Below are positions 26,043 through 30,760 of a stretch of 64,000 nucleotides of DNA, in pieces (within the stretch, counting starts at the first letter, position 1; each line of letters opens with the position of its first letter). This stretch comes from Comamonas sp. Its GTDB lineage: Bacteria; Pseudomonadota; Gammaproteobacteria; Burkholderiales; Burkholderiaceae_C. Under the pieces are notes generated by a model. The model was not told the origin of the DNA, did not search any database, and saw only the letters and a list, made by a program, of their open reading frames with translations. Position numbers and translations under genes: made by a program. Location of the stretch: NCBI RefSeq assembly GCF_009360615.1, contig NZ_SPEY01000018.1, positions 1 to 64,000 of the forward strand. Direction: 5' to 3'.

Positions 26043-29000
26043 ATGTCTGACACTGTTGTTTTACGCGGGCCCGAGCGGCCTGACCTGCTGCGCCGCGAGG
26101 TGCTGGCCGATATCTTCGAGGCGACTGCCGCAGCCTACCCGGAACAGATCGCGTTGATCGAGGGGCAGGGCGAGGGCATGCGCCAGTGCAGCTATGCGGA
26201 GCTGGACGCCAATGCCAGCCGTGCCGCGCACCGGCTGATCGAGGCCGGCATACGCCCTGGAGACATGGTGGGCCTGTGGCTGCCACGCGGCATGGAACTG
26301 CTCACGCTGCAGCTGGCGATCGCCAAGACCGGCGCTGCCTGGCTGCCCTTCGATGCCGAAACGCCCACCGAACGCATCGCCACCTGTCTCGACGATGCGA
26401 ATGCCAAGGCGATCTTGATTGCCGAGCGGCTGGCCCAGCGGGTGCAGTCCCAGGCAGGAATTTCAGCACAGGTCTTCAGCGACAACGCACTGCTGGAGCC
26501 GCTGCCGGCAGGCGCGGTGCTGCGCCGGCGCGAGGGCGCGCTGCCGAGCCACCCGGCCTATGTGATCTATACCAGTGGCTCCACGGGCAAGCCCAAGGGC
26601 ATCGCCATCACCCAGGGCAGCATCTGCCACTTTCTGCGCAGCGAGAATGCGCGGCTGGGCGTGCACCGCGGTGACAAGGTCTACCAGGGCTTCTCGGTGG
26701 CTTTCGACATGTCGTTTGAGGAGATCTGGATCAGCTACCTCGTGGGCGCAACGCTGTGGCTGGCGCCGCGCGAGATCGCCGGCGACCCCGAGGCCCTTCC
26801 GCGCGCGCTGATGGAGCAGCAGGTGACGGTGCTGCATGCCGTGCCCACCTTGCTGGCGCTGTTCGCACAGGACGTGCCGAATCTGCGCCTCATCAATCTT
26901 GGCGGCGAGATGTGCCCCGAAGCGCTGGTGGCGCGCTGGGCCCGCCGGGAGGACGGTGGCCAGCGCCGGATGTTCAACACCTATGGGCCGACCGAGGCCA
27001 CGGTGTCGGCAAGCCTGGCCGAGCTGAAGGCCGGCGAGCCCGTGACCATCGGAACACCCCTGCCGAACTACGGCCTGGTGGTGGTGCAGGTGATCGAGGC
27101 CGACAGCTTTGCGGCCGGCACCGCACCCGCTCTGGTCGGCCTGCCACAGGGCGAGGTCGGCGAGCTGTGCATCACCGGACCCGGGGTGGCGGCGGGCTAT
27201 CTGGGTCGTCCCGATCTGACGGCCGAGAAATTCCTTGCCAATCCCTGGGCCCAGGGCCCGCACGATACGAGGCTGTACCGCACGGGGGATCTGGCACGTA
27301 TTGACGAGCACGGCCAGATCCACTGCCTGGGCCGGGCCGACGATCAGGTGAAGATCCGCGGTTTTCGTGTCGAGCTGGGCGAGATCGAGGCCGTGCTGGC
27401 GCAGCAGCCGGGCGTCGGAACCACGGCCGTTCTGCTGCGCCAGGACGAGGGCATGGACCAGCTGGTTGCCTTCTATGTGCCCGCCGATGCAGATGCGCTG
27501 CCGATGCATTCCGCACTGCGCAATGCCCTGGCCGGGCACCTGCCTCCCTATATGGTGCCCGCGCGATTCGAGGCACTGGCCGAGATGCCGCGCCTGACCT
27601 CGGGCAAGATAGACCGCAAGGCACTCAAGGTCCGGCCGCTGTCCGCCGCGATGGATGCTTCCGGCTCCGACCGGCCCGAAACTCCGGCCGAGGAAGTGCT
27701 GTTCGCTGCCCTGGCACAGCTATTCCCGGGGCAGCCCCTGCGCCGCGGGCTGGATTTCTTCAGCGACCTGGGCGGGCATTCGCTGTTTGCGGCGCGGCTG
27801 ACCTCGCTGCTGCGCGCCGATGCGCGCTTTGCCCGGGTTACCGTGAGCACCATCTACCAGCAGCGTCACATCGGCCGGATCGCCGATGCGCTGCAGGCCA
27901 CCATGCTGGCCGACGATGAGGCTGCAGCCGGTGTTCCGCAGCGGCCCTTCCGCATCCATTCCGCGTGGCGGCGCTGGCGCTGCGGCGTGGCCCAGGCGGT
28001 GGCGATTCCTATGCTGGTGCTGATCAAGATGGCGCAGTGGCTGGCGCCTTTCTTCACCTACCACTTCTTTACCGGCGACGAGAACGACTCGGTATGGTTT
28101 GCCGTGGCCATGTCGGTGCTGGCCTTCGCGATCGCCACCCTGGCCGAATTCGTGATTGCCTGGGCCGGCAAATGGCTGGTCGCGGGGCGCCTCAAGCCGG
28201 GACGCTACCCGCTGTGGGGATGGACCTATTTCCGCTGGTGGTTAGCCGACCGGCTCGTGGAGGCCGTGCCTATCGCGATGATCACAGGCTCCTCGCTGCA
28301 CCCGCTGTGGCTGCGTGCGCTGGGCGCGAAAGTGGGGCGGGAGACCAATCTCGGCTCGATGACGGTGCGTGTGCCCGACCTGCTGGCCATCGGCGACGGC
28401 GTGAGCGTGGGCAATGCCGTGAGCATGGAGAACGCGCGCGTCGAAGGCGGCGAGCTGGTGCTGGGCCGTATCTCCATCGGCAACGAGGTGTGCATCGGCT
28501 CGTATGTGGTCGTGGAAGGCAATACCTGTCTCGAAGACTGGGCCCACCTCGAGGGGCAGTCGGCGCTGGCCGACGGCATGGTCCAGCCCGCGCGCAGCAT
28601 CTGGGCAGGCTCGCCGGCGCGGGCAGTGGGAGAGTTCGATCCTGCCAGCCTGCCGCCGCGTCAGACTGCGGGCCGGCTGCATCAGGTCTTGGAAATGCTG
28701 GTCTTTCTCGCGGGCGGCCTGCTGGTGGCCATGCTGTTCTTCATGCCCGTGTTCCCGACCTTCATGCTCATCGACGTTCTCGACGTCGAGGCGATCTCGG
28801 TGCGGCCGTTGCTGGAGCAGGGTGTCGTCGATGCGGGCGGCGCCTTCCTGCTGCGCCTTCTCAAGTTCTTTGTGCTGGCCCTGCCATCCAGCGTGGTGCT
28901 GGTGGCCTGTACGGTGTTGGCGGCGGCATTGGTGCGCTATCTGTTCCTTCCGCGCACGCGGGCAGGCACCTGGTCGGTCCACAGCCGGCGCTACCTGGGC

Positions 29001-30149: not shown

Positions 30150-30760
30150 TGCGTATCCTGCCCTGCCTTCTGGCGGGCGGGCATCGAGCCGGTGCACCGC
30201 AGTTGCGCTTGGTGCAGGGGCTGGACGTCACCGACCGAGACAGGGCACGCAGCCAGGCTCGTGCGGCGCTGCGTGCCTGTCTGGCCCCGGAGTGGGGCTG
30301 CACCGACGCCGAGCTGGAGATCAGCAACCTGCGCAACCAGGCGCCGCGCCTGCGCCTGCGCGGCAATCCGCTGACAGCGCCGCACTGCTCCATCAGCCAT
30401 GCGCCAGGCCTGGCGCTGCTGGCCTGGCATGGCTCGGGAGCGGTAGGAGTCGATATCCAGGCGGTGGACCCCGCAGTGCCGCGCTGCGAGCTGGAGGATG
30501 TGGCCCGGCTGTACCTGGAGCCGGAAGTCGCCCGGGCGTTGCGGGATACCGTGCCGGATACCTTGTTTTTTGTCGCGTTCGCGCATGCCTGGACGCAGCA
30601 CGAGGCCCGGCTCAAGTGCGCGGGCCTGGGCCTGGAGGAATGGAGCGGTGCGCTGCAGCGGCGGCTGGCGGGGATGGACTGCGCACCGCTGCAGCCGGCG
30701 GCGGGCTATGCGGGCGCCGTGGCCTGGCACGCTGCTGCCGGCATCGGCGGCGGGCGCTGA
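30149..30760 (+). CDS. 4'-phosphopantetheinyl transferase (Sfp-type)
   Basis: 203 residues. The ATG overlaps the NRPS stop (TGATG), so the genes are translationally coupled. The P1-P3 motifs are recognisable: PHCSISHAPGLALLAW, then GVDIQAVDP with the Mg-binding Asp, and the helix FAHAWTQHEARLKCAGLGL with the W..xEA..K signature. It should load phosphopantetheine onto Ser580 of the neighbouring synthetase. Sfp-type enzymes can be promiscuous, but the overlap points to a dedicated role. An oppositely oriented terminator lies 30 bp downstream. Confidence 0.9.
   Translation: MRILPCLLAGGHRAGAPQLRLVQGLDVTDRDRARSQARAALRACLAPEWGCTDAELEISNLRNQAPRLRLRGNPLTAPHCSISHAPGLALLAWHGSGAVGVDIQAVDPAVPRCELEDVARLYLEPEVARALRDTVPDTLFFVAFAHAWTQHEARLKCAGLGLEEWSGALQRRLAGMDCAPLQPAAGYAGAVAWHAAAGIGGGR

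Follow-up and report, generated by a model that had tools for sequence, protein, structure and literature searches.

What does the large non-ribosomal peptide synthetase (NRPS) encoded on contig NZ_SPEY01000018.1 of Comamonas sp. produce, and which enzyme activates it? The stretch of DNA analysed, referred to here as the window, comprises 64,000 nucleotides. It contains a gene for an NRPS of the Pls/PosA family (1368 residues; 26043..30149, forward strand), followed on the same strand by a gene for an Sfp-like 4'-phosphopantetheinyl transferase (PPTase; 203 residues; 30149..30760). Both open reading frames (ORFs) are uninterrupted, and at the junction TGATG the synthetase stop and the PPTase start have one base in common, so that the overlap described in the original prediction, which was made from the letters of the window, is present as described. 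The nearest named relative of the synthetase is that of Comamonas testosteroni JL40, with 94% identity. The results presented below make it very probable that the two genes together serve to make delta-poly-L-ornithine, as judged from sequence comparisons. The earlier expectation of some homopolymer in Comamonadaceae becomes a named prediction that is testable with existing assays. It is well supported that the pair is an additional member of the Pls/PosA family with a PPTase partner, and not a new kind of system.

The synthetase matches TIGR02353, the model for Pls/PosA family non-ribosomal peptide synthetases, over model positions 1-695 of 695. The score, 761 bits where the curated cut-off is 423.1, excludes a chance match. 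All features that mark membership of the family are present: besides this score, there is an adenylation (A) domain and a carrier serine without a condensation (C) or thioesterase (TE) domain, and there are three pairs of transmembrane (TM) helices alternating with three soluble domains. The A domain (residues 25-530; 26115..27632) is recognized by Pfam as AMP-binding (239.7 bits, residues 25-387) and AMP-binding_C (35.6 bits, residues 447-522), with PDB entries 8G95/8G96 as its best match. The carrier (thiolation) domain at about residues 540-621 (27660..27905) gives a weak Pfam match (PP-binding, 13.7 bits with a cut-off of 20.8), and its attachment serine S580 (27780-27782) is invariant in 21/21 representatives with a mutual identity below 65%. 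No thioesterase or condensation domain was found in the synthetase by the Pfam scan with E values up to 0.1. The A domain, the carrier serine, and the lack of a thioesterase are as the original prediction had read them. The protein would also be expected to belong to the antiSMASH class of non-alpha poly-amino acids (NAPAA), from which no defining difference was found; this label has been applied to such genes before (PMC13291983).

The specificity code was read by aligning the A domain with PosA of Acinetobacter baumannii (record CP040041.1), using the PosA positions given in PMC10522769. The pocket residues D222, M223, E226, H265, N285, G287, T313, V321, S322, and K522 give the code DMEHNGTVSK, which is identical at 10/10 positions to the published PosA code. 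A code derived earlier by hand, DMEHILTVSK, agrees except at positions 5-6, where a register slip had placed Ile and Leu instead of N285 and G287, and it was dropped. As a check of the method, the same alignment returned DLEDIGTVVK for Rhizobium tropici and DSECYGGVTK for one genome of a phylum-wide sample, both as published; the published codes are DMEHNGTVSK for PosA, DLEDIGTVVK for rhizobia and others, and DSECYGGVTK for a Bdellovibrionales bacterium (PMC10522769). Residues D222, M223, E226, T313, and S322 correspond to PosA D217, M218, E221, T304, and S313, which touch the substrate in the PosA structures (PMC10522769). The position of M223, the second of the code, is occupied by Ala in lysine enzymes and by Phe in the PDAP enzyme (PMC10522769), so the alanine expected of a Pls enzyme is absent. 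Because the pocket is identical at all ten positions to that of a proven delta-poly-L-ornithine synthetase, short delta-poly-L-ornithine is the predicted product.

The remainder of the protein also resembles PosA (PDB codes 8G95-8G98; PMC10522769), with which it shares the domain order and 52.3% of 1324 aligned residues (60.4% of 503 in the A domain and 48.5% of 714 in the C-terminal half). The original prediction was right in assigning the protein to the Pls/PosA type, but PosA, which has a characterized product, is a closer comparator than the Streptomyces Pls chosen there. Like Pls, the synthetase has an A domain and a carrier domain followed by six TM helices and three tandem domains, without a C or TE domain (PMC9205021). 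It differs from Pls in having Met and not Ala at the second code position (the Ala rule is from PMC10522769) and in its A-domain match, which is 509.6 bits to the PosA structure (8G95/8G96) versus 259.1 bits to the lysine enzyme of Streptomyces albulus (7WEW). Streptomyces albulus Pls was not present among the 20 of 2996 plasmid records listed. A tree of 67 rows, obtained after thinning at 88% identity, places the window protein and PosA inside a 58-row group of DMEHNG-code enzymes with a Shimodaira-Hasegawa-like approximate likelihood ratio test (SH-aLRT) value of 100; this tree carries a long-branch warning, and PosA is among the flagged rows. In a 26-row tree calculated with a mixture model, both are in an 11-row group, also with SH-aLRT 100. 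Both trees come from a short search without bootstrap, and their rows include no verified lysine synthetase. They set the window protein with PosA and away from the DFE- and DLED-code enzymes, so that a placement outside the family clade, considered in the original prediction, was not observed. A Sphingomonas parapaucimobilis plasmid (L138, 1929-6490) carries a synthetase with the code DMEHNGTVTK and an adjoining PPTase gene. It pairs with a DVEANGTGSK row in the 26-row tree, and it may reflect either pocket convergence or an old divergence.

Several points speak against a firm assignment of ornithine as the substrate. An identical pocket at 60% A-domain identity is no proof of substrate. The A domain of PosA accepts D-Orn as well, at roughly half the catalytic efficiency, and activates L-Lys weakly (PMC10522769). 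The DMEHNG code is not limited to one clade, as the Sphingomonas row lies outside the PosA group in both trees. Finally, 7WEW scores under several ordinary NRPS A domains, which makes its low score a weak argument when taken alone.

The C-terminal half was modelled with AlphaFold2 (residues 535-1368, 55 sequences), resulting in a predicted local distance difference test score of 83.4 and a predicted TM-score of 0.86. The model contains six long helices as three pairs, alternating with three beta-helical units. TM helices 1-2 (residues 641-675 and 684-714; 27963..28184) precede the left-handed beta-helix (LbH) unit C1 (residues 716-866; 28188..28640), TM helices 3-4 (residues 878-900 and 931-968; 28674..28946) precede unit C2 (residues 972-1130; 28956..29432), and TM helices 5-6 (residues 1138-1175 and 1179-1209; 29454..29669) precede unit C3 (residues 1211-1362; 29673..30128). 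Hydropathy analysis of the window protein gives seven segments at the threshold used, two of which (928-946 and 951-969) share one long helix, and averaging over the family leaves six regions, arranged as three pairs, in the C-terminal half, along with a marginal peak at 75-93 in the A domain. The three units are mutually homologous (hhalign E values 1.2e-35, 2.9e-20, and 1.6e-31). These results bear out the original description of three TM pairs alternating with three hexapeptide-like domains. A model of the C-terminal part of PosA with approximate threefold symmetry has already been published (PMC10522769).

Outside the family, likenesses of the C-terminal half are faint. The Hexapep model of Pfam scores 29.6 bits (cut-off 27) when summed over the whole synthetase, with no single stretch above the cut-off alone. 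Comparison with PDB sequences gave weak matches only (best E value 8.8e-6), to gamma-carbonic-anhydrase and further proteins of the hexapeptide type. LbH O- and N-acetyltransferases, including maltose/galactoside acetyltransferase and CysE, are among the 50 best Foldseek matches (E values 9e-6 to 3e-4), but with a TM-score by query of only about 0.09-0.15 the likeness extends over no more than a small part of the model. Such acetyltransferases lack TM helices and use acyl-CoA in place of a carrier domain.

In the membrane half, eighteen residues with polar or charged side chains are conserved in 20 or all 21 of the representatives. Twelve of them lie in the C3 region (E1228, T1249, E1276, D1284, Q1295, H1297, E1300, D1301, K1305, Y1325, K1343, and E1345), eight of which are invariant in 21/21 (T1249, Q1295, H1297, E1300, K1305, Y1325, K1343, and E1345). 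Those outside C3 are Q651, Y729, R731, D1048 and N1077 of unit C2, and R1144. The sole near-invariant histidine of the membrane half is H1297, and in the profile alignments it stands opposite A798 in C1 and E1055 in C2. The clustering of 12 of the 18 residues and of this histidine in C3 suggests that there is one condensation active site and that it is located in C3. An arrangement of three equal catalytic C domains was dropped, as C1 and C2 are without the residues invariant in C3. Degenerate C-terminal units in homologues had been named earlier as a point to check: the units are unbroken, although C1 and C2 do not retain the C3 invariants. The A and carrier domains have to lie in the cytosol, and with the helices arranged pairwise, C1, C2, and C3 should then all face the cytosol as well. 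A mutational study by Kito in 2013 reportedly covered all three C domains. The residues listed for C3 are candidates for bond formation without a condensation domain, and they may be partly known from that study.

The second gene of the pair was examined in the same way. The PPTase scores 27.2 bits with the profile PF01648 (cut-off 25; 26.4 bits in the genome scan), and residues D102, W148, E152, and K156 are kept in 46/46 aligned sequences, that of the window included. Sfp-type PPTases have the motif GxDxE with a second acidic residue; the window enzyme differs from them in having Q104 at that site. Position 104 is mostly M (24), Q (9), or L (7) in the 46 aligned PPTases, again with the window included, and by these residues the PPTase can be classed as a divergent type. 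The PF01648 matches in the genome of the window (E values up to 0.1) are this PPTase and one on contig C30, which is taken as AcpS. The synthetase is the sole amino-acid A domain above the TIGR01733 cut-off in the genome. The only PP-binding match is a 91-residue frame, also on contig C30, that is regarded as the acyl carrier protein of fatty-acid synthesis; the carrier of the synthetase is under the cut-off. Genomes of the same genus that do not have the pair contain one PF01648 match each in two cases and four in the third.

To compare gene neighbourhoods, 80 loci were collected with the window protein, of which 78 were usable after removal of L041 and L071, where the contig ends inside the synthetase. 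With a profile for which the window PPTase and 45 PPTases of these same loci served as seeds, a PPTase homologue was found directly downstream in 58/78 loci (same strand, start at most 300 bases from the synthetase end or overlapping) and 1.3-1.7 kb downstream in four further loci. The PPTase is the most widely common neighbour among the 80 loci. Other clusters of neighbours reach at most 18 loci, and two clusters of 16 loci are antisense ORFs near the synthetase end. A larger conserved gene cluster was dropped from consideration, because no neighbour apart from the PPTase exceeds 18/80 loci. On a Sphingomonas plasmid, an annotated PPTase overlaps the synthetase end.

Some of the evidence runs counter to a PPTase partner. 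The residue two positions after the invariant Asp is Q104 and not acidic, and the genome is 93.4% complete, so a further PPTase could be missing from the assembly. A PPTase is absent from the examined flank in 16/78 loci, and none is annotated in the flanks examined beside A. baumannii posA, which is a single-gene operon (PMC10522769), or in the Azospirillum thermophilum and Rhodococcus records. Among the 19 phylum-sample loci, there is a strong PPTase neighbour in one and a weak one in two (E values about 1e-4 to 8e-4; flanks of about 1.5 kb). Weighing both sides, we infer that the PPTase is a dedicated activating enzyme in the group of the window, not in the whole family. There it probably switches on the synthetase.

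A mechanism for the proposed ornithine polymerase can be outlined from these comparisons. The PPTase would load phosphopantetheine onto Ser580 of the carrier domain. The A domain would select ornithine, with D222 binding the alpha-amine, E226, T313, and S322 binding the delta-amine, and M223 fixing the chain length against lysine. These roles were established in PosA by structure and mutants (PMC10522769), and they are expected to hold for the window protein because the residues are identical. Ornithine would be adenylated and then transferred to the carrier by the A domain. The membrane half, with its three LbH units over three TM hairpins, would use isopeptide bonds to link the ornithines through their delta-amines, with no C or TE domain involved. 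Unit C3 most likely would provide the single condensation site, with C1 and C2 serving mainly as a scaffold, as conservation indicates. The outcome would be short cationic chains; in vitro, PosA by itself yields free chains of 7-12 units (PMC10522769). A more elaborate proposal, which we consider doubtful, is that the pair forms a portable self-activating polymerase with a pseudo-threefold membrane half. Condensation would take place in C3 only (Q1295, H1297, E1300, D1301, K1305, and residues close by) over a C1/C2 scaffold, and the six-helix bundle would pass the growing cation through the membrane, so that synthesis equals export; the PPTase would travel along because the AcpS of the host cannot activate the synthetase.

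The free chains expected of the delta-poly-L-ornithine unit are to be weighed against a physiological product that is not a free polymer. In this alternative, which is improbable, ornithine would be activated and a short oligo-ornithine would be attached to or kept in the cell envelope. This would suit a membrane enzyme without a TE domain and the observation that no gene for an exporter or a degrading enzyme stood out as a widely common neighbour. A Pls/PosA-like gene also occurs elsewhere inside a hybrid polyunsaturated fatty acid-polyketide synthase-NRPS cluster (PMC13291983), indicating that pathways to larger products are possible. In contrast, PosA produces free oligomers by itself, as described above, and no gene besides that of the PPTase is common to most loci.

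That the product is another homopolymer, for example epsilon-poly-L-lysine or a polymer of diaminobutyrate, is less likely still. The synthetase is in the same family as Pls, and the weak activation of lysine by PosA would be compatible with such a product. The pocket is against it, as M223, E226, T313, and S322 are exactly as in PosA and the Met is replaced in the lysine and PDAP enzymes. The trees also keep the protein with PosA and apart from the DFE- and DLED-code enzymes, among rows that hold no verified lysine synthetase. A lysine polymer as the first choice was dropped on the grounds of the pocket and the trees.

Neither a product in Comamonas nor a PPTase pairing was described among the open-licence PMC papers listed in the literature searches. 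The terms "phosphopantetheinyl transferase" and "poly-L-lysine synthetase" are mentioned together in PMC8949500 in a context unrelated to such a pairing, as far as the available part of that paper goes. The main text of PMC10522769 contains none of the words Burkholderia, Comamonas, Acidovorax, Delftia, Betaproteobacteria, or phosphopantetheinyl. NAPAA or NRPS-like clusters are mentioned in papers that also treat Comamonas, not in connection with this product (PMC10558695 and PMC13156110, in the parts available). A synthetic 12-mer of delta-poly-ornithine inhibited three fungi, but for the two bacteria tested no dose that stops growth was found (minimum inhibitory concentration above 0.30 g/L; PMC10522769).

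Matches over the TIGR02353 cut-off occur in 23/299 sampled genomes of the taxonomic family and in 19/249 genomes of the phylum-wide sample, with the genome of the window included in both counts. The three other genomes of the same genus in the 299-genome sample have no match over the cut-off. Among the 19 other phylum-sample loci (L140-L158), the code is DMEHNGTVSK in 2, of the DLED type in 10, DFEALGTVTK in 5, DVEANGTGSK in 1, and DSECYGGVTK in 1, the last being a match below the TIGR02353 cut-off. Across the phylum sample, therefore, only a minority of loci have the ornithine-type code. When all rows are combined, 96 of 110 have DMEHNGTVSK, but these rows are non-independent, as 80 were retrieved with the window protein as query and some genomes are represented twice. 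L157 was left out of the representative set and L159 out of the code count as partial or fragmentary, and L032-L038, which score below the family cut-off, were not counted. The relatives collected with the window protein are a biased set, drawn from Burkholderiales, related betaproteobacteria, and some Pseudomonas; most of them have the ornithine-type code, often with a PPTase next to the synthetase. The DVEANGTGSK code belongs to L147 (genome G443); it is not among the codes named in the available part of PMC10522769 and possibly reflects another substrate. One genome of the taxonomic family (G015, contig C1) contains two equal-scoring TIGR02353 copies about 12 kb apart (448349-450475 and 460166-462292), one of them in an 872-residue frame.

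The surroundings of the locus were compared with the three genomes of the same genus without the pair. These genomes have uvrA and dctM, and the interval between them holds near full-length genes of MFS, GMC oxidoreductase, and IclR type, named from reading their translations (the frames are listed for L133; the MFS match of L134 and L135 is in two pieces). On the left flank of the pair, the window retains a remnant of an IclR-type regulator gene, consisting of the last 37 codons (25525-25635) and the stop (25525..25638, forward strand), with 86% amino acid identity over 37 residues to a 274-residue IclR-type gene of a same-genus genome without the pair. On the right, homology to these genomes resumes at 30794 (L133) or 30838 (L134 and L135), and a terminator-like hairpin lies at the 3' end of dctM (30797..30817, reverse strand), with similar sequence in L133. 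The simplest reading would be that a two-gene unit of roughly 5 kb was gained while older genes decayed; a loss from the other genomes may also account for the difference. The pair likewise precedes dctM in C. testosteroni JL40 (L040) and Comamonas sp. Pcu381 (L043), in which the IclR remnant is undetectable. In four other Comamonas loci (L042, L044, L045, and L058), none of seven other window neighbours occurs within the 6-kb flanks, and the pair therefore sits elsewhere. No sigma-70 promoter was found by a simple scan, which says little because 0.6 are expected by chance. That the pair was acquired and is now silent or decaying, without a product in this strain, as its patchy distribution (23/299 family genomes and 0/3 other same-genus genomes), the adjoining truncated IclR gene, and the lack of a recognizable promoter could suggest, is very unlikely, since both frames are open, the pocket, S580, and the family-wide invariants are intact, and relatives at 86-94% identity lie on the same dctM side in two other Comamonas records.

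In JL40, a 240-bp copy of the 3' end of dctM (L040, 288-524), 90% identical to window positions 30836-31074, is located some 5.5 kb upstream of the synthetase, and the cassette is thus flanked there on both sides by dctM-end copies. Upstream of the pair in the window, the ORF at 24615-25376 (forward strand) encodes a 253-residue protein that has no Pfam or NCBIfam match and was not found in the three same-genus genomes. It is preceded by a UvrA-like ORF of 1978 residues (18663-24599, forward strand). The usual length of UvrA is about half of this, and the ORF apparently consists of two fused UvrA copies, parts of which cross-match each other's places in relatives with about 31-40% identity.

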